NCBI RefSeq assembly: GCF_002735925.1 | Contig: NZ_PEDL01000001.1 | Coordinates: forward strand, 1-64,000 | Length of the DNA: 64,000 bases | Direction of reading: 5' to 3' | Origin: Sporanaerobium hydrogeniformans | Lineage (GTDB): Bacteria; Bacillota; Clostridia; Lachnospirales; Cellulosilyticaceae | In this document: piece after piece, positions 17,008 to 26,852 of the stretch | How positions within the stretch are numbered: position 1 is the stretch's first letter | Layout: every line of letters starts with the position of its first letter | Made by a program: the position numbers and the translations under genes | Notes under the pieces: generated by a model | What the model was told of the DNA's origin: nothing | Databases searched by the model: none | The model's input: the letters and a program-made list of their open reading frames with translations, nothing else

Positions 17008-17290
17008 TATCGAACAAATTTTATTACTAATGGGAGTATTAGTATTTTTAGTTACAGCAGTAGTAGAGGTTACAAAAAAGCTTGTGCCTATCAAAACGGA
17101 CTATTATGTTTTAGGTGTAAGCGTGCTGCTTAGTGTATTAAGCTACTTAGTATATGTAAGCTATAACAAGGCAGCTATTATCTGGTACTACATAGTAGGA
17201 GCCATCACACTTGGATTTTTAGTAGCATATGTATCCATGTTTGGCTGGGAGAAATTTATAAAGCTGTGGGAGCAGTCAAGGAGGGGTTAG
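17000..17290 (+). CDS. Phage holin (three transmembrane helices)
   Basis: A 96-residue protein with three hydrophobic segments: SIEQILLLMGVLVFLVTAVV, YYVLGVSVLLSVLSYLVYV and IIWYYIVGAITLGFLVAYVS, ending in a short basic tail (WEQSRRG). Size, topology and position just before the endolysin identify it as a holin that opens the membrane at lysis time. Its end overlaps the open frame that precedes the endolysin start. Confidence 0.78.
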   Translation: MFSIEQILLLMGVLVFLVTAVVEVTKKLVPIKTDYYVLGVSVLLSVLSYLVYVSYNKAAIIWYYIVGAITLGFLVAYVSMFGWEKFIKLWEQSRRG

Positions 17291-17292
17291 CA

Positions 17293-17856
17293 ATGGGAAC
17301 CACAGACCAATGTAGAGATATTAAGCAACTTAATCCTATAGCCCAAAAAGCTTGCAATCTATTTCTAGAGGAGTGTAAAAAGCAAGGGGTACAAATATTC
17401 ATCACCGAAACATATCGCTCACAAAAGCGCCAAAATTGGTTGTACGAGCAAGGCAGGTCACGACCTGGACAAGTAGTAACATGGACTAAGAAAAGCAACC
17501 ACACAGGACGTATGGCTTGGGATATAGCGTGTTCGCCACCACAAGCTTTATATGATAGCAAAGTATTATCTAAAGCAGGTACTATTGCTAAACAGCTGGG
17601 TATCACATGGGGAGGATTATGGAGCACACCGGATGCCCCACACTTTGAAGTAACAAGTAAGTGGCAAGAACCCAAAAAGGAGGAGCCAGAAGTGACTAAG
17701 AAAATTAAGATGCAAATTAACGGTGTAATAAAGCAAGTAGAAGTAATAGAGAAAGATGGCTTTAACTACGCAAAGCTTCAGGATATTAAAGATCATTTTA
17801 TAAAAGTAGAGTATGACAGCGTTAAGAAGCTGCCGATTATAGAAGCACGTGCCTAG
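17293..17856 (+). CDS. Endolysin, M15 (VanY/Ply500-like) L-alanoyl-D-glutamate peptidase
   Basis: A 187-residue peptidoglycan hydrolase. The M15 zinc signature is SNHTGRMAWDIA (first His and Asp; near residue 72) and the second zinc/catalytic part is GGLWSTPDAPHFEV near residue 113-126. After a linker rich in Glu/Lys, residues about 140-187 (MQINGVIKQVEVIEKDGFNY) form a small domain resembling copper-amine-oxidase-like/wall-binding segments. The start at 17293 follows AAGGAGGGG; the frame upstream to 17266 overlaps the holin and includes that site. Confidence 0.9.
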   Translation: MGTTDQCRDIKQLNPIAQKACNLFLEECKKQGVQIFITETYRSQKRQNWLYEQGRSRPGQVVTWTKKSNHTGRMAWDIACSPPQALYDSKVLSKAGTIAKQLGITWGGLWSTPDAPHFEVTSKWQEPKKEEPEVTKKIKMQINGVIKQVEVIEKDGFNYAKLQDIKDHFIKVEYDSVKKLPIIEARA

Positions 17857-17886
17857 GTGGGGATTATTCCTCACCTTATTTTTTGT
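17855..17886 (+). terminator. Terminator of phage late operon
   Basis: AGGTGGGGA (17855-17863) pairs with TTCCTCACCT (17867-17876), followed by TATTTTTTG. It begins at the endolysin stop and closes the late transcript. Confidence 0.85.
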
Positions 17887-18058: not shown

Positions 18059-19231
18059 ATGGAAAAGATGATACTCATTTCAGTAGATTTAGTAAAAGAA
18101 AGTAATTATACTGAACGTGTTATAACTATTTTAAATAATATGATTAAAGAGGGTAATGCTATAAGATTATATTCTAGAGATAGTAGTAGATTTGAAAATA
18201 TAAAACAAAAAGATTTAAATCCTAAAATTAGATTTATTAATAGAAAAGATTTGAACCAACAACTTAAGCAACTAGAATTGGCTAAAAAAGGAAAATGTAT
18301 TGTTGTAGGTAGAAAGGATAAAGATTTTGAATTGGCAATACATAATAAGTTACTATATATAGTACCAAACTGGATGAGTAAAGAAGATAAGCCTGAAAAA
18401 TATGGTGTTAAGGTGGATTCACCAGAGCAATTATATCAATTTATTAAGACCATTAATAATCAAAACACTTGGTATTCACAATTAGAAATAGATGATAAGA
18501 CAAGTATAATTTCTTTAGCAGATACAAGGACTTTTGATAAATTTATAAATTCGACAAAAGAAAAAGAGGTACTAAATAAGTTTAAAGATATATTAAAGCA
18601 TGGATCTAGAAATTATTATGAAATGTTTTTATATCACTTCTTATCCTCAATTTCCAATTCATATGAAATGTTTTATGATATAAATATATGGGGATGCTTT
18701 CCATCGTCTAGTGGAGATTTAGATAATAATGAGATGTTTTATTTTAAAGAAAATGTTCGAAAACTTATGGGAGGACAGCCGTTAAGGAGTGAGTCATATA
18801 AAAAACACCCTAATATATTAGTAAGACATACTCCAACAACAAAAAGTCATGAAGAAAAAAATTCAAATAATAGAATAAGCGAAGGAGCAAAAAAACACTT
18901 TGATAGCATGTGTTTACATCCAGCATACAAAGGTAAAATTAAAGATAAAAATATTTGTATATTTGATGATTACTTAACACATGGGAATTCCTTTGAAGCA
19001 GCAAGAAATTTATTAAGAGTAGAAGACGTTAATAGAATTATTTTTGTTAGTTTGGGGCGTTTCACAAAGCCTTATCAGTATCAAGAGTATAGTATTACTG
19101 GAGATGTCTATAGTAAGCAATATCATTATAAATTGCTTAATAGAAAAGAATTGAGCAAAGAGTTTATTATAGATTATAAATCAAAGTCAGAAATAGAAAA
19201 CCTGTATAATATATTTAACATTAGTAAATGA
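18059..19231 (+). CDS. Phosphoribosyltransferase-domain protein, ShosT-like putative toxin
   Basis: A 390-residue protein. Residues about 225-390 hold a type I PRTase domain: the PRPP-binding loop is CIFDDYLTHGNSFEAAR (around 300-316), with the two acidic residues and a T-H-G-x-S form of the usual T-x-x-T/S. The N-terminal 110 residues look like a Rossmann/HAD-like fold (MILISVDLVKESNYTERV, then KKGKCIVVGRKD) but lack the full DxD of active HAD enzymes. The middle (residues 140-225) is unknown. A PRTase gene followed by a dprA-like gene is the layout of ShosTA, described as a toxin-antitoxin and anti-phage pair; that assignment is inference from domains and order. Ribosome binding site GGAGGA 8 bases upstream. 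Substrate unknown; it may consume PRPP or act on nucleotides. Confidence 0.72.
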   Translation: MEKMILISVDLVKESNYTERVITILNNMIKEGNAIRLYSRDSSRFENIKQKDLNPKIRFINRKDLNQQLKQLELAKKGKCIVVGRKDKDFELAIHNKLLYIVPNWMSKEDKPEKYGVKVDSPEQLYQFIKTINNQNTWYSQLEIDDKTSIISLADTRTFDKFINSTKEKEVLNKFKDILKHGSRNYYEMFLYHFLSSISNSYEMFYDINIWGCFPSSSGDLDNNEMFYFKENVRKLMGGQPLRSESYKKHPNILVRHTPTTKSHEEKNSNNRISEGAKKHFDSMCLHPAYKGKIKDKNICIFDDYLTHGNSFEAARNLLRVEDVNRIIFVSLGRFTKPYQYQEYSITGDVYSKQYHYKLLNRKELSKEFIIDYKSKSEIENLYNIFNISK

Positions 19232-19276
19232 TGATGTATACTGTAAATAAGTAAGTTAAGGGAGAAGAGGGAGGAT

Positions 19277-20431
19277 ATGAAAGTATATATAATAGCATTG
19301 GTAGAGCTTGGGTTATCCAATAATGATATTGCAAAGTTAGTTGCTATAGTGTCAGAAACAGATATAAAAGATATCTTCAGAGGAATGTACTTAGACATTC
19401 AGTTTAGATATAATTTGGACTTGAATAAGTATTTAAAACTATTTCAAGATAAGGACAAACTAGTTGCTTCTATAATAAAAGCTAGAAATATTTTAAACAA
19501 ATGTAAGGAGTTAGGTATAAAAAGTATTTCGATTAACTCCAAGAGATATCCTCAAGTACTAAAGGAAATAGATAATCCACCAGTGGTACTTTACTATAAA
19601 GGGAGTGAAATTTCTAAGGCGCATAATAAAAGTATAGGGTGTGTTGGAACAAGAGATATTACAGAGTTTGGAGTTAACGCTGTTACTAAATTAGTACCAA
19701 GTTTGGTATCTGAAGGATTTACAATAATAAGTGGATTGGCAGAGGGAGTAGATGCATACTCTCATAAAGTATGTTTAGAGAGCAAGGGTATTACCATAGC
19801 AGTATTAGCACATGGTCTTGATTATATTTATCCTCAAAGTAATAGGCTTTTAGCCGAGAAAATTATAAATAGCGGTGGAACATTAGTGAGTGAATATCCA
19901 CCTGGAACAAGAGCTGATAAATTTAGATTTGTACATAGAAATAGAATAATAAGTGGATTGGCTAAAGGCTTATTAGTTTTTGAGTGTAAAGAGAAAAGTG
20001 GTACTATACACACAGTTAATTTTAGCATAGAGCAAAATAAACCAGTATTTTGTCCAAAGCCCTCAATAATAACAGATACAACAAAAGGATTAACATATTT
20101 GATAGAAACCCATAAAGCTATAGGTATTCCATCTACTAATTCCTATGATCTATTAGTTTATAATTTAGGATATAAATTAAAGAATAAAGAGAAATTAAAA
20201 AGAATAAAAGCTAATAATGCTTCTGCAATGATTAATAACATAAACATCTATCCTCAACAAATATTTAGTATCATGAGTTCAGATGATACATGTACCTCTA
20301 GTGTTAAAGTAGATAGGGAGACATATAGTCTTTATAAAGAGTATTTATCTAAATATCATTTATCCAATAAAGATGTAATTAATGCTGTAATACTTTCATT
20401 AGCAGAACAGTATAAGAAAGAACAAGGCTAA
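19277..20431 (+). CDS. DprA/Smf-like protein, ShosA-like putative antitoxin
   Basis: A 384-residue protein. Residues 1-75 are helical (HhH/SAM-like). The DprA Rossmann domain spans about 80-290: GCVGTRD (122-128), SGLAEGVDAYSH (152-163), SEYPPGT (205-211) and RNRIISGLAKG (221-231), all positions expected for the ssDNA-binding fold. The usual DprA winged-helix end is replaced by a different tail; residues 343-384 (VKVDRETYSLYKEYLSKYHL, then NKDVINAVI) resemble a ribbon-helix-helix DNA-binding domain. It is unlikely to be the housekeeping competence gene, because it lies in phage cargo, 45 bases after a PRTase gene and in one unit with it. Start follows GGGAGGAT. Confidence 0.8.
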   Translation: MKVYIIALVELGLSNNDIAKLVAIVSETDIKDIFRGMYLDIQFRYNLDLNKYLKLFQDKDKLVASIIKARNILNKCKELGIKSISINSKRYPQVLKEIDNPPVVLYYKGSEISKAHNKSIGCVGTRDITEFGVNAVTKLVPSLVSEGFTIISGLAEGVDAYSHKVCLESKGITIAVLAHGLDYIYPQSNRLLAEKIINSGGTLVSEYPPGTRADKFRFVHRNRIISGLAKGLLVFECKEKSGTIHTVNFSIEQNKPVFCPKPSIITDTTKGLTYLIETHKAIGIPSTNSYDLLVYNLGYKLKNKEKLKRIKANNASAMINNINIYPQQIFSIMSSDDTCTSSVKVDRETYSLYKEYLSKYHLSNKDVINAVILSLAEQYKKEQG

Positions 20432-20466: not shown

Positions 20467-20499
20467 GGCCATACTCCTAAAAAGGAGCGTGGTCTTTTT
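20467..20499 (+). terminator. Terminator after DprA-like gene
   Basis: GGCCATACTCCT and AGGAGCGTGGTC form an 11-of-12 stem with an AAAA loop, followed by TTTTT. It separates the two-gene unit from the MBL gene. Confidence 0.85.
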
Positions 20500-20620: not shown

Positions 20621-21673
20621 ATGAGGAATAAGTTAATAACATTTTTAATGACTATTGTGTTATTAGTAGGCTCGTGTTTAGGAGCTACAACACAATCTAA
20701 TCTTGTATCACAAGAAAAAAAGAATGTAGATATTCATTTTATTAGTACTGGAAATAGTGATGCCATATTAATTAAAGATAATGGAAAAATGATGCTTGTA
20801 GATGGTGCTGAGAATGATGATGAAAAAGACTTAGTAGCATATCTAAAAGAACAAAATGTTAAAAAGCTAGATTATGTAGTATTGACACATCCTGATGCAG
20901 ACCACTGTGGGGCATTAGATTCAGTTATCAAAAATTTTGAAATAGGAACAGTATTAATAGGAAATGGTAGTGCAGATACTAAAACATACAAAGATTTTGT
21001 AAATGCTGCTATTAATAAAAATATTAAGCCAAGCGTTCCATTAGATGCTGAATTTACATTGGGAGAAGGTAAGTTTAAGTTTTATAATCAAAAATCACAA
21101 TCTAAAGACGTAAACGATAGATCGCTTGTGATGCTCTATACATTTGGAGAAAAAAAGTTTTTATTTAATGGTGATGCTGGTGTGGAAGTTGAAAAAGTTC
21201 TACCATTGAAGGAAATTGGAAAAGTTGATGTATTAAAGGTAGGGCACCACGGTTCTAAAACATCAAGTAGTGACACTTTTATAAAATCTATAGAACCTAA
21301 GGTAGCTATAATATGCTGCGGTAAAGATAATAAATATGGGCACCCAAACAAGGAAACGTTAGATACTTTAAGCAAATATAAAGCTAAAGTTTATAGAACA
21401 GACATTAATGGGGGCATAATACTAAAAACAGACGGAAAAGAAATAAAAATTAACACAACTACAGCGGTAGATACTAATAAAAATGCAATGCAACAAGTTA
21501 CTACTATAACTCAAAATAATACAACAACTACAGATAGCACAGTTTATATAACAAAAACAGGTAAAAAGTATCACAAAGACGGATGTAGTAGTTTGAGTTC
21601 TAGCAAAATAAAAAGTACAGTTAAAGATGCTAAAGCAAAAGGATTAACACCTTGCGATAAATGCAAGCCATAG
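20621..21673 (+). CDS. Exported ComEC/Rec2-like metallo-beta-lactamase-fold protein
   Basis: A 350-residue protein. The N-terminal signal (KLITFLMTIVLLVGSC) ends in VGSC, a plausible lipobox with Cys19. The MBL domain (about 33-280) resembles the C-terminal domain of ComEC: IHFISTGNSDAILIKD, the metal motif THPDADHCGAL (about 89-99), LFNGDAGVEVE and GHHGSKTSSS (about 207-216). This fold includes nucleases of DNA uptake systems. After a Thr/Asn-rich linker, residues about 305-350 carry a small Cys/His domain (YHKDGCSSL, then LTPCDKCKP) found at the end of many secreted Bacillota nucleases. It acts outside the cell or on the membrane; a DNA or nucleotide substrate is likely but not shown. Confidence 0.82.
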   Translation: MRNKLITFLMTIVLLVGSCLGATTQSNLVSQEKKNVDIHFISTGNSDAILIKDNGKMMLVDGAENDDEKDLVAYLKEQNVKKLDYVVLTHPDADHCGALDSVIKNFEIGTVLIGNGSADTKTYKDFVNAAINKNIKPSVPLDAEFTLGEGKFKFYNQKSQSKDVNDRSLVMLYTFGEKKFLFNGDAGVEVEKVLPLKEIGKVDVLKVGHHGSKTSSSDTFIKSIEPKVAIICCGKDNKYGHPNKETLDTLSKYKAKVYRTDINGGIILKTDGKEIKINTTTAVDTNKNAMQQVTTITQNNTTTTDSTVYITKTGKKYHKDGCSSLSSSKIKSTVKDAKAKGLTPCDKCKP

Positions 21674-21697
21674 AGCATAATAATTATTTAAGTGCAT

Positions 21698-21741
21698 AAA
21701 AAACAAACCATAGCCATTAAAGGGTATGGTTTGTTTTTTAT
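21698..21741 (+). terminator. Terminator after MBL gene
   Basis: AAACAAACCATA and TATGGTTTGTTT form a perfect stem flanked by A- and T-runs, so it can work on both strands. Confidence 0.88.
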
Positions 21742-22039
21742 TATAAAGAGATTACGTATGTCTATGCAGCGGTATATATAAAGGTTGTACATATTAATTG
21801 TTGCGGACTTCCGCTATTAAAAAACCATCATGCTTTAGCATGGTGGTTTTTTGTGATGTCTATATATTAAACCTCTTTTAGTATATTAATTAGTGAACTA
21901 TTATATATACAATAAATAATAACTATAAAAAAGTTGAATGAATTATTTGAAATAATCAATATATTAACTTTTAAACATGAGCTATAATGAGGAGGACTAC
22001 TTTTTAGTAAAAGTAATTAAATAGTAGGAGGCTCAGAAT
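21742..22039. other. Gap holding the probable right prophage boundary
   Basis: No gene is visible. A small hairpin (GCGGA-CT-TCCGC, about 21805-21816) is followed by a second strong terminator: AAAACCATCATGC, a TTTA loop and GCATGGTGGTTTT, ending in TTTTTTG (about 21821-21852). This could be the end of a short RNA whose 5' part was displaced by integration, or the terminator of a chromosomal gene now separated by the phage. A ribosome binding site for the symporter (AGGAGG) lies near the end. No duplicated att core could be found because attL is outside the window. Confidence 0.4.
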
Positions 22040-23677
22040 GTGAGAGAGTTTATCTTTGGTTTAATTGGCGGCACAGCACTACTTATGTATGGTGTAGACA
22101 AGATGGGAGATGGTTTGGAAAAGGCATCAGGTAAACTTATGCAACGTATTTTATCCATTTTAACGGGTAATGTATGGAGTGCTTTTTTGGTAGGGATAGC
22201 AACCACTGTGTTGGTTCAAAGTAGTACAGCTATTACTGTCTTGACAGTAGGATTTGTAAACGCAGGGCTTATGAAACTAAGTCAAGCTGTAGGAATTATT
22301 TATGGAGCGAATATAGGGACGACAATAACAGCTCAATTAATGGCTTTTAGTTTTAAATTTAAGCTAACAGAGATAGCTCTTCCTGTTATAGGGTTAGGAT
22401 TTTTGATTTCTTATTTTGCAAAAAAGGATACTCTAAAAAATATAGGGAGTGCCATTATGGGGTTTGGAATGATGTTTCTAGGCCTTAAGCTATTAAATGA
22501 TGGAGTACCTTTTATAAGAACTAATGAAAATATTCGTTATTTCTTCCAGAACTATGCCTCAATCACTCTAATTGGTATTTTACTTGGAGCTATAGCTACT
22601 GCTTTAGTACATAGTAGTAGTGCAACAGTGGGGCTAGTGCTTATGCTAGGGCAAGCAGGTGTTATTACTTTACCAGGAGCTATAGCTATTATGCTAGGAG
22701 ATAATATTGGGACTTGTATAACAGCTCAATTGGCTAGTCTTACAGGAAATATTAATGCTAGACGAACAGCATGGGCACATACACTATATAACATTATTGG
22801 GGTGATTATATGTGGTTTATTTATTGGACCTTTTATCGAAATTATCAAGTGGACCACATTGACATTTAATAATTCAGATAATATTGCTCTTCAAATTGCT
22901 AATTCTCATACAGTATTTAATGTACTTAGTGCAGTTGTTTTTTTACCTATAAATAAGTATTATGTAAAATTTCTAGAAATGATAATACGTGATACTTCAG
23001 ATAATTTCTACAAGCCATTGGATAAGCTTTTAATTCAAACACCTGTAGCAGCTTTTAGGGGAGTATTGAAAGAGAATGTTTCTGCTCTAAAAAGAGTAAG
23101 AAATATGATTAATTGTACTATGGAGGCTTTTTATAATAATCAGATAGATCTATTAGGAGAGGTACGAAGAGATGAAGAAAAGCTGAATACATTACAAAAA
23201 GAATTAACTTCTTATATTGTAGAGATTTCCAAAGAAAAACTTATTGAAAAATATTCCTTTATGATTCCCACCTTTATTAATTGTATCAATAATATTGAGC
23301 GGGCAGGAGATCATACTATCGATTATACAGTTTATATAGAAACTAAGATCAATAAGCGGCTGACATTTAGCGAAGAATCTATGGTAGATATTAAAGCTCT
23401 TCACCAGGTTCTTATTCAAATGATTGATTTAACTATTAATAGTATTCAAAATAAAGATTTAACACAAATTACTCAGATAACAGCATTAGAGGAACGAGCA
23501 GATTATTTATATGACTTAGGTGTAAATAACCATATTATTCGTTTAGAAAATGGATTATGTGATGTGGAAACAGGTGTAGTTTTTGTAGATATTCTCAATC
23601 ATATGGAGAGAATAGCAGACCATATTTATAAGGTGTTTTTGCTTCTCATAAAAGATGGTGTAATAGAAAATTTATAA
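22040..23677 (+). CDS. Na+/phosphate cotransporter (NptA/YjbB family)
   Basis: A 545-residue membrane protein. The membrane half (residues 1-310) has two inverted NaPi repeats, each with the QSSTA-type motif: VLVQSSTAITVL near residue 57 and ALVHSSSATVGLVL near 190; GANIGTTITAQ and GDNIGTCITAQ follow each. The C-terminal half (about 340-545) is a PhoU-like helical domain with IERAGDHTIDYT and MERIADHIYKV. It imports phosphate with sodium, with the PhoU part likely regulatory. GTG start, AGGAGG about 10 bases upstream; the ATG two bases earlier is in a different frame and stops at once. First chromosomal gene after the phage cargo. Confidence 0.93.
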   Translation: MREFIFGLIGGTALLMYGVDKMGDGLEKASGKLMQRILSILTGNVWSAFLVGIATTVLVQSSTAITVLTVGFVNAGLMKLSQAVGIIYGANIGTTITAQLMAFSFKFKLTEIALPVIGLGFLISYFAKKDTLKNIGSAIMGFGMMFLGLKLLNDGVPFIRTNENIRYFFQNYASITLIGILLGAIATALVHSSSATVGLVLMLGQAGVITLPGAIAIMLGDNIGTCITAQLASLTGNINARRTAWAHTLYNIIGVIICGLFIGPFIEIIKWTTLTFNNSDNIALQIANSHTVFNVLSAVVFLPINKYYVKFLEMIIRDTSDNFYKPLDKLLIQTPVAAFRGVLKENVSALKRVRNMINCTMEAFYNNQIDLLGEVRRDEEKLNTLQKELTSYIVEISKEKLIEKYSFMIPTFINCINNIERAGDHTIDYTVYIETKINKRLTFSEESMVDIKALHQVLIQMIDLTINSIQNKDLTQITQITALEERADYLYDLGVNNHIIRLENGLCDVETGVVFVDILNHMERIADHIYKVFLLLIKDGVIENL

Positions 23678-26498: not shown

Positions 26499-26570
26499 TC
26501 CTCGATAGCTCAGCGGCAGAGCATCCGGCTGTTAACCGGAGGGTCGTAGGTTCGAACCCTACTCGGGGAG
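26499..26570 (+). tRNA. tRNA-Asn (GTT)
   Basis: Acceptor TCCTCGA pairs with TCGGGGA, discriminator G. Anticodon loop CTGTTAA gives GTT. T arm GTAGG-TTCGAAC-CCTAC. No CCA is encoded. First of four tRNAs in one transcript. Confidence 0.96.
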
Positions 26571-26585
26571 TTTTTTTGAGAGTAT

Positions 26586-26658
26586 AGGGGCATAGTTCAG
26601 TTGGTAGAACGTCGGTCTCCAAAACCGAATGTCGTGGGTTCAAGTCCTGCTGCCCCTG
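26586..26658 (+). tRNA. tRNA-Trp (CCA)
   Basis: Acceptor AGGGGCA pairs with TGCCCCT. Anticodon loop CTCCAAA gives CCA. T arm has TTCAAGT. Discriminator G, no encoded 3' CCA. It is charged by the TrpS encoded at 33512. Confidence 0.96.
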
Positions 26659-26669
26659 CTTAGAAGTTT

Positions 26670-26743
26670 GGCCCAGTGGTACAGTTGGTTAGCACGCCGC
26701 CCTGTCACGGCGGAGGTCGAGGGTTCGAGTCCCTTCTGGGTCG
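26670..26743 (+). tRNA. tRNA-Asp (GTC)
   Basis: Acceptor GGCCCAG with CTGGGTC. Anticodon stem CCGCC/GGCGG and loop CTGTCAC give GTC. T arm GAGGG-TTCGAGT-CCCTT. No encoded CCA. Confidence 0.95.
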
Positions 26744-26780
26744 CTTAAGTTAAGCAATTAACTTAAAAATGTATAAACAA

Positions 26781-26852
26781 GGTCGCTTAGCTCAGCTGGG
26801 AGAGCACTGCCTTACAAGCAGGGGGTCATAGGTTCGAGCCCTATAGCGACCA
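26781..26852 (+). tRNA. tRNA-Val (TAC)
   Basis: Acceptor GGTCGCT with AGCGACC, discriminator A. Anticodon loop CTTACAA gives TAC. T arm ATAGG-TTCGAGC-CCTAT. The final CCA-like letters belong to the acceptor and discriminator, not to an added tail. Confidence 0.95.

Follow-up and report, generated by a model that had tools for sequence, protein, structure and literature searches.

At positions 20621-21673 of the window, by which we mean the whole analysed stretch of 64,000 nucleotides from Sporanaerobium hydrogeniformans, the forward strand carries an intact open reading frame of 350 codons that starts with ATG and has AAAGGGGG a short distance before it. Its product is predicted to be a ComEC-type MBL protein with an export-type start. 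The genes to its left, recognized by PHROG profile matches, are those for terminase, portal, tape measure, tail and endolysin, that is, prophage late genes, and to its right the first gene is that of a Na/Pi symporter, which begins at 22040. The endolysin gene (17266..17856, +; phrog_6523 endolysin, 2.8e-44) marks the start of a cargo slot, and of the three genes in the interval from there to the symporter, two form a pair at 18059-20431 and the third is the MBL gene. The location in phage cargo proposed by an earlier reading of the DNA, made from its letters alone (hereinafter the sequence-only reading), is thus borne out by the late genes on the left and the slot after the endolysin. The contig starts inside the prophage, so that the left prophage end is absent. 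When 21674-22060 was searched against the own genome for an attachment site, only the segment itself, the reverse complement of the terminator and short chance-like matches were returned, so that no such site was identified; the RNA features found near the MBL gene are four tRNAs at 26499-26852 and nothing else.

Cargo genes and transcription units

The two genes upstream of the MBL gene are predicted to form a ShosT/ShosA-like defence pair. The ShosT-like gene (18059..19231, +) matches the PADLOC ShosT model at 5.1e-50 and has no Pfam match, and the ShosA/DprA-like gene (19277..20431, +) matches ShosA at 1.5e-75 and PF02481 with 223.5 bits, so that a ShosT-like and a ShosA-like gene lie side by side as in ShosTA. 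Two PHROG profiles fit the pair over nearly the full length of its genes (phrog_27844, 1.6e-103; phrog_30500, 1.4e-113), and related prophage genes therefore exist. In sequence searches, no phage record matched the ShosT-like protein by tblastn at E <= 1e-5, the ShosA-like protein matched 38 phage records, none over more than 80% of the query, and peptide patterns retrieved no ShosA relatives from IMG/VR; a search for the pair in 116 genomes at E <= 1e-60 found a single one, the own genome. The sequence-only reading had seen two competence-type folds side by side here. The DprA-like fold stands, but a competence gene pair made of the DprA-like and MBL genes was rejected, given that the DprA-like gene is the partner of the upstream ShosT-like gene and that the host genome has another DprA (G000:C54), the ShosA-like gene being its second gene of the DprA fold.

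A terminator scan returned three terminator-like sites against 1.0 in shuffled sequences; one such site lies at the endolysin end (17855-17876) and another, a stem-loop, separates the ShosA-like and MBL genes (20474..20487, +). A self-complementary, terminator-like stretch follows the MBL gene at 21696..21741, a 91% match to its reverse complement. Because of the stem at 20474-20487 and this downstream stretch, transcription of the MBL gene apart from the Shos-like pair, as surmised earlier from the letters alone, is plausible. Promoter-like sites were as numerous as in shuffles (29 against 28.9), and none could be assigned to the MBL gene. The gene lies downstream of the late genes on the same strand, which we count against its expression from the prophage in the lysogen.

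A predicted ComEC-type nuclease domain

The MBL domain spans residues 33-281 (20717..21463, +) and is recognized by Pfam at residues 44-234 (PF00753, 67.3 bits). The model TIGR00361 (ComEC_Rec2) gives 130.6 bits against a cut-off of 190 and matches only at model positions 437-663, in its C-terminal third, and the transmembrane Competence domain of Pfam is absent from the 350-aa protein, which on its sequence is not a full ComEC DNA uptake channel. The best NCBIfam E-value belongs to blaAHM (NF049846, a B3-like beta-lactamase), a family of which the protein is not a member, its 131 bits falling short of the cut-off of 590. An AlphaFold2 model built from 24 sequences (mean pLDDT 87.9) has the crystal structure of the ComEC MBL domain, 9ic4, as its top fold match (Z 33.0, 2.1 A, 248 residues), followed by the choline esterase Pce (Z 28.8) and then RNase J (Z 19.0). 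Sequence comparison with proteins of solved structure gives the same order, with ComEC ahead (9vc6, 4.4e-30; 9ic4, 7.2e-29) of Pce (1wra, 2.6e-11).

The catalytic residues point in the same direction. The study of the ComEC nuclease that accompanies 9ic4 (2025, NAR) reports mutation of H598, D600, D602, H603, D700, H725 and S728, which are metal and DNA-contact residues (PMC12455585). All seven are present here as H90, D92, D94, H95, D185, H209 and S212: the metal motif HPDADH at residues 90-95 (20888..20905, +) corresponds to H598-D600-D602-H603, the predicted metal ligand D185 (21173..21175, +) to D700, and the HHGS motif at residues 209-212 (21245..21256, +) to H725 and S728, the equivalences of D185, H209 and S212 having been counted by hand on the alignment. 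Among the 24 aligned relatives, the invariant positions include H90, D94, H95, N165, D185, H209, H210 and S212. According to Silale (2021), ComEC is told apart from the choline esterase Pce by its motif II Asp and motif III Asn, the Pce/CbpE form being HxHxDH in motif II with a His in motif III (PMC8579336). With D92 in motif II and N165 in motif III, the protein has the ComEC form, unlike Pce; many stand-alone relatives have His rather than Asp in motif II, so that Asp at this place is not a family-wide rule. By predicted fold and by these residues, the domain is a putative ComEC-type nuclease domain.

Export-type start and Ada-type tail

The protein begins with a signal-peptide-like stretch at about residues 1-25 (20621..20695, +), identified by sequence, patterns and a modelled helix at residues 2-20; the N-terminus is basic, the helix is hydrophobic, and the orthologues start in a similar way (all read without a signal-peptide predictor). 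Together with the fold and the seven residues, this start agrees with the proposal of the sequence-only reading that a ComEC-like, nuclease-type MBL protein is exported. The lipobox seen in the same reading fared less well. The tetrapeptide VGSC at residues 16-19 is a possible lipobox with Cys19 (20675-20677, +); of two lipobox patterns it passes the loose one and fails the strict one, and a Cys at this position is missing in both intact prophage orthologues from Niameybacter. Among 11 homologues that form the sister group of the prophage proteins (see below), 7 pass the loose and 6 the strict pattern, and by eye the hydrophobic stretch ends in Gly-Cys in 10; across the family, the loose pattern is passed by 32 of 65 proteins (out of 69 hits, after exclusion of the two pieces of a broken copy, the second protein of locus L060 and ComEC). 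Since the prophage clade does not keep the lipobox Cys, a lipid anchor appears doubtful and is no more likely than free secretion.

Residues 307-350 (21539..21670, +) form a candidate Ada-type zinc domain with the putative ligands H-C-C-C. The C-terminal Cys/His domain noticed earlier is real in the sense that these H, C, C and C are invariant in all seven aligned members; the four positions include a PCxxC motif, and a His occupies the place of the first Cys of Ada. The Pfam model Ada_Zn_binding (PF02805) scores 18.4 bits in this tail, below its cut-off of 23, and has 13 matches in 56 genomes, 5 of which coincide with the ends of relatives of the MBL protein, all 5 above the cut-off. Because the VIA-align rows obtained with the complete model extend over residues 32-288, a separate model was made of the tail and used for searching. 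With this model (mean pLDDT 85.2), the PDB matches from Foldseek at E <= 10 numbered three, all of them to Ada and all weak (E 0.37-0.46), and VIA-align placed it best on an N-Ada/DNA complex (Z 5.1, 2.0 A, 46 residues). A profile of the tail found Ada (1adn) at E 0.038, behind the uncharacterised 4fs7 at 0.0058, a match that consists of several weak repeats only. Taken together, these results suggest a domain of the Ada type with His in place of the first Cys.

Other relatives carry other domains in this position: among nine MBL proteins scanned, some of them chosen for their unlike tails, one has HHH_3 and two have a Lamin Tail Domain. According to its report, the ComEC nuclease was faster in vitro with each of three fused DNA-binding domains (PMC12455585). 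As a separate observation, Ada-type tails also occur on unrelated exported- or membrane-type proteins (L077 9758-10486, L084 and L086), one of which has, by eye, a TadE-like start; the tail is consequently no proof of a nuclease.

In the two intact Niameybacter copies, A and B, core and tail have diverged to different degrees. Their cores are about 95% identical, with dN 0.044 and dS 0.292, so that the MBL core of the nearest relatives is under purifying selection, and their tails have dN 0.51 and dS 0.78. The tail of copy A agrees with that of the protein at 20621-21673 at 14 of 19 and 17 of 23 positions, versus 9 of 20 and 9 of 22 with the tail of copy B. This looks like a tail swap between near-identical prophage copies (L049 10907-11065; L050 10922-11086).

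A constant gene in a variable prophage slot

The own genome encodes, besides a true ComEC, a homologue of about 45% identity (C22:156211). The nearest relatives elsewhere are three copies in Niameybacter massiliensis, with best segments 60, 55 and 75% identical, one of them broken into two frames. Each of the three sits in a prophage, after the endolysin gene, and two of them are recorded as viral contigs too. What lies between the endolysin and MBL genes is different in each of the four prophages. In place of the Shos-like pair of the window, one Niameybacter slot (L034 9099-14920) has an HNH protein like CBASS effectors, another (L079 4485-10991) a type-IV-restriction-like HNH protein, and the third (L078 5951-11089) a SocA/Panacea gene and no PADLOC match; the other slot genes of these prophages had no match in the profile scans. 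Across these four prophages, the cargo of the slot varies and the MBL gene stays constant. As to a place at the right end of other prophages, which had been suggested as a check of the phage link, all three closest relatives occupy the slot after the endolysin and that of L034 is the last prophage gene, followed by a dpaA-type host gene, but in L078 an integrase follows and in L079, by eye, a recombinase-like gene, so that these two are not at the exact end.

In the phylogenetic tree, which comprises 66 of the 69 hits (without the two pieces of the broken copy and the second protein of L060) and has a weak backbone, 22 of its 63 inner branches being drawn open, the protein forms a clade with the two intact Niameybacter prophage copies (support 100/99). 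The sister group of this clade (100/96) consists of 11 homologues from the same bacterial family. Seven of the 11 neighbourhoods were read by eye (L037-L043) and show ordinary chromosomal genes around the MBL gene; in L040 and L042 phage-like genes lie a few kb off, and L040 has one match to the endolysin of the window. We also observed an ERF-type gene near three homologues outside prophages (L039 12388, L040 12474, L042 7639; Pfam match for L039), perhaps a phage remnant or an insertion hotspot. At E <= 1e-40, homologues were found in 55 of the 116 genomes searched, the own one included. The phage link of the close homologues thus holds for the nearest three, contrary to the refuting case foreseen in the sequence-only reading, in which close homologues would be general chromosomal genes, and more distant ones are widespread outside phages; judged by these sequences, the wider MBL family is largely non-phage and its original function not phage-specific.

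Distribution in phages, viral contigs and plasmids

Phage-borne relatives are nonetheless numerous. A match to phrog_14556 (2.6e-92) takes in nearly all of the protein, whose MBL domain also matches, more weakly, phrog_7043, annotated "tail protein" (6.2e-50; 1077 positions, residues 596-882), so that in some phages the domain may sit inside a tail protein. By tblastn, 48 phage records and 183 plasmid records were matched, some of the former being pieces of comEC at phage insertion sites rather than cargo. In Geobacillus phage GBSV1, the relative lies between an amidase gene and integrase/repressor genes, on the repressor strand, and it groups with a copy from a Listeria phage and one from a Geobacillus plasmid, away from the clade of the protein studied here (100/100, in a tree of weak backbone).

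A profile search of IMG/VR yielded 56 viral-contig loci, in 55 of which the protein could be read; an Ada-like tail pattern is present in 32 of these 55. On contigs of at least 20 kb (50 of the 55 with a match, near-duplicates and two Niameybacter loci included), 32 of 50 genes are found no more than 6 kb from a contig end, where uniform placement would give 15.4, an enrichment that may come in part from host flanks at badly drawn prophage borders; host-type enzymes such as PPDK_N do occur among the neighbours. Scanning 128 of the 197 neighbouring ORFs, and considering the best 25 of 177 PHROG families and 25 of 99 others, we found that repressor, endolysin and integrase are the commonest recognised neighbours among the families listed, with up to 9 repressor/regulator, up to 5 endolysin and 4 integrase genes (one family each; the counts overlap and are not additive). 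The gene order in L147, read by eye, is a repressor-type gene, the MBL gene and a DUF3006-like gene, after which genes of amidase-like and tail-like type lie on the opposite strand.

Three DUF3006 proteins were among the matches listed for the 128 neighbours. A small protein of this type follows several MBL copies in phages, a plasmid and a genome (L147 3172-3417, L141 8935-9195, L104 3857-4072, L045 8657-8929); no such partner lies beside the MBL gene at 20621-21673.

In the literature searched, at the level of titles and the first parts of abstracts, we noticed no description of a phage-borne ComEC-like MBL protein, and the portions considered of two ComEC papers (PMC5031224, PMC6299819) make no mention of one.

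Discussion

The combination of a prophage slot shared with the nearest relatives, a predicted ComEC-type fold with the catalytic residues and an Ada-type tail leads us to propose that this prophage gene encodes an exported DNase which depends on Mn, binds DNA through an Ada-derived domain and lowers the uptake of DNA from outside, a reading to which we give a little less than an even chance. Under this proposal, the gene would be lysogenic-conversion cargo expressed from the prophage, and its product a DNase like the C-terminal one of ComEC, exported and active with Mn2+, whose Ada-derived zinc domain would hold DNA near the active site while the enzyme destroys it outside the cell membrane. 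The benefit to the prophage would be less natural transformation, a process that could replace or cure it. Precedents for such an effect are known, prophage-type DNases having been reported to lower transformation about 10-fold (YokF), about 1000-fold (Dns of CJIE1) and about 100-fold each (the nucleases of CJIE2 and CJIE4) (PMC4774983; for DNases of mobile elements and transformation, see also PMC3995785). The host genome encodes ComEC, DprA, ComEA and T2SSE-family ATPases (three over the cut-off), so that there may be a natural transformation for the proposed DNase to lower.

An exported enzyme of this kind could instead act in superinfection exclusion: DNA from other phages would be destroyed at the cell surface, either by the enzyme unaided or once a second factor has misdirected the injected DNA. 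Tailed phages normally inject their DNA past the cell surface, so that it is not normally exposed outside the membrane, which speaks against this idea. It would fit the defence- or toxin-antitoxin-like genes found in the slot of all four prophages examined, a slot that nevertheless also has genes with no defence match, and among the families and matches listed for the 128 viral-contig neighbours two match a superinfection-exclusion PHROG and one is an Ltp-type lipoprotein, probably in L164 (located by motif). The literature searched (titles and first parts of abstracts) yielded no system that uses such an enzyme, and the prophage DNases with a tested role, as reported, block transformation (PMC4774983). 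We regard exclusion as unlikely, and about equally so a role in nutrition or biofilm, in which the enzyme would digest extracellular DNA for phosphate and nucleotides or loosen biofilm DNA to the advantage of the lysogen. Homologues in 55 of 116 genomes, many with export-type or lipobox starts, and the reported ability of surface nucleases to feed cells on DNA (PMC3929857) are consistent with such a role, as is the phosphate symporter that is, probably by chance, the first gene past the slot; it leaves unexplained, however, the repeated place of the gene among phage defence and lysogeny genes and the fact that it was kept although the own genome has a homologue of 45% identity.

Two further readings are less probable still. 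A cell-wall esterase or phosphodiesterase like Pce/CbpE, altering teichoic acid or another surface polymer and perhaps thereby phage receptors, would account for the export-type start, and Pce is the second-best fold match (Z 28.8) and is also found by sequence (1wra, 2.6e-11). Against it, motif II (HPDADH) and the motif III Asn have the ComEC form, Pfam detected no choline-binding repeat in the protein, whose tail resembles Ada, and ComEC is closer in sequence (7.2e-29 versus 2.6e-11); we consider an esterase quite improbable. That the MBL gene is a third part of the adjoining Shos-like system is very improbable, even though it adjoins the pair on the same strand and related MBL nucleases are reported from defence systems (PADLOC matches to LmuA, 2.9e-22, RTasMBL, 2.8e-19, and Avs1a, 1.7e-12; PMC12799240). 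A terminator-like stem separates it from the pair, neither Shos gene was matched near any Niameybacter copy, in surroundings of about 20 kb each, the immune MBL nucleases described pair with a trypsin-like protease, none of which was found among the neighbours scanned, and the signal-peptide-like start would remove the protein from the cytoplasm.

Should the gene indeed encode an exported DNase directed against transforming DNA, phages would have turned part of the DNA uptake machine, the nuclease half of ComEC, against DNA uptake. That prophage DNases can lower transformation is already on record (PMC4774983); the added value would be a function for a gene present at 56 viral-contig loci, relatives of which go under the names "late competence protein" or "MBL fold metallo-hydrolase". 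Conceivably, temperate phages of Bacillota have more than once taken up a stand-alone form of their host's ComEC nuclease as an extracellular arm of the defence slot, which would shred DNA outside the membrane and keep transforming and rival mobile DNA from replacing the prophage, the DNA-binding part at the C-terminus (of Ada, helix-hairpin-helix or lamin-tail type) being swapped like a module that chooses the substrate, but this generalization is speculative and, in our estimate, rather unlikely.

Comparison with known systems

The MBL nucleases of defence systems of the HamM, Avs1a and LmuA types share the ComEC-like MBL domain but are reported to be proenzymes activated by a partner protease (PMC12799240); the gene studied here, with no trypsin-like protease among the scanned neighbours, falls outside these types. 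The tail resembles the N-terminal domain of Ada (1u8b, 1zgw, 1adn) in its small zinc-domain model, in the PCxxC motif and in a first ligand pair four residues apart. It differs at the position of the first Cys: the residue that serves Ada as methyl acceptor (Cys38) is a His here.

Among stand-alone relatives, homologues of the family outside prophages, such as that of the own genome (C22:156211), have the same domain layout at about 45% identity; they form a separate clade, and most have a lipobox-like start. ORF0038 of Geobacillus phage GBSV1, named "late competence protein", is likewise a phage-borne MBL protein between lysis and lysogeny genes (39.6% identity), but lacks the Ada-type tail, is followed by a small ORF and lies on the strand opposite the lysis genes.

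YokF, Dns of CJIE1 and the nucleases of CJIE2 and CJIE4 are, like the protein described here, (predicted) exported DNases carried as prophage cargo. YokF is reported to be of the thermonuclease type (PMC3929857), unlike the MBL protein, and for YokF and the CJIE DNases the transformation phenotype has been shown, whereas for the MBL gene it is a prediction. The closest parallel for the enzyme itself is the C-terminal MBL domain of ComEC from Moorella glycerini (9ic4), a Mn2+-dependent endo- and 5'-3' exonuclease, which is alike in fold, in HxDxDH, in the motif III Asn, in the residue equivalent to D185, in HHGS and in its predicted place on the extracytoplasmic side. In contrast to ComEC, the prophage protein stands alone with a signal-peptide-like start of its own and no channel domain found, and it carries an Ada-type tail in place of the OB fold.
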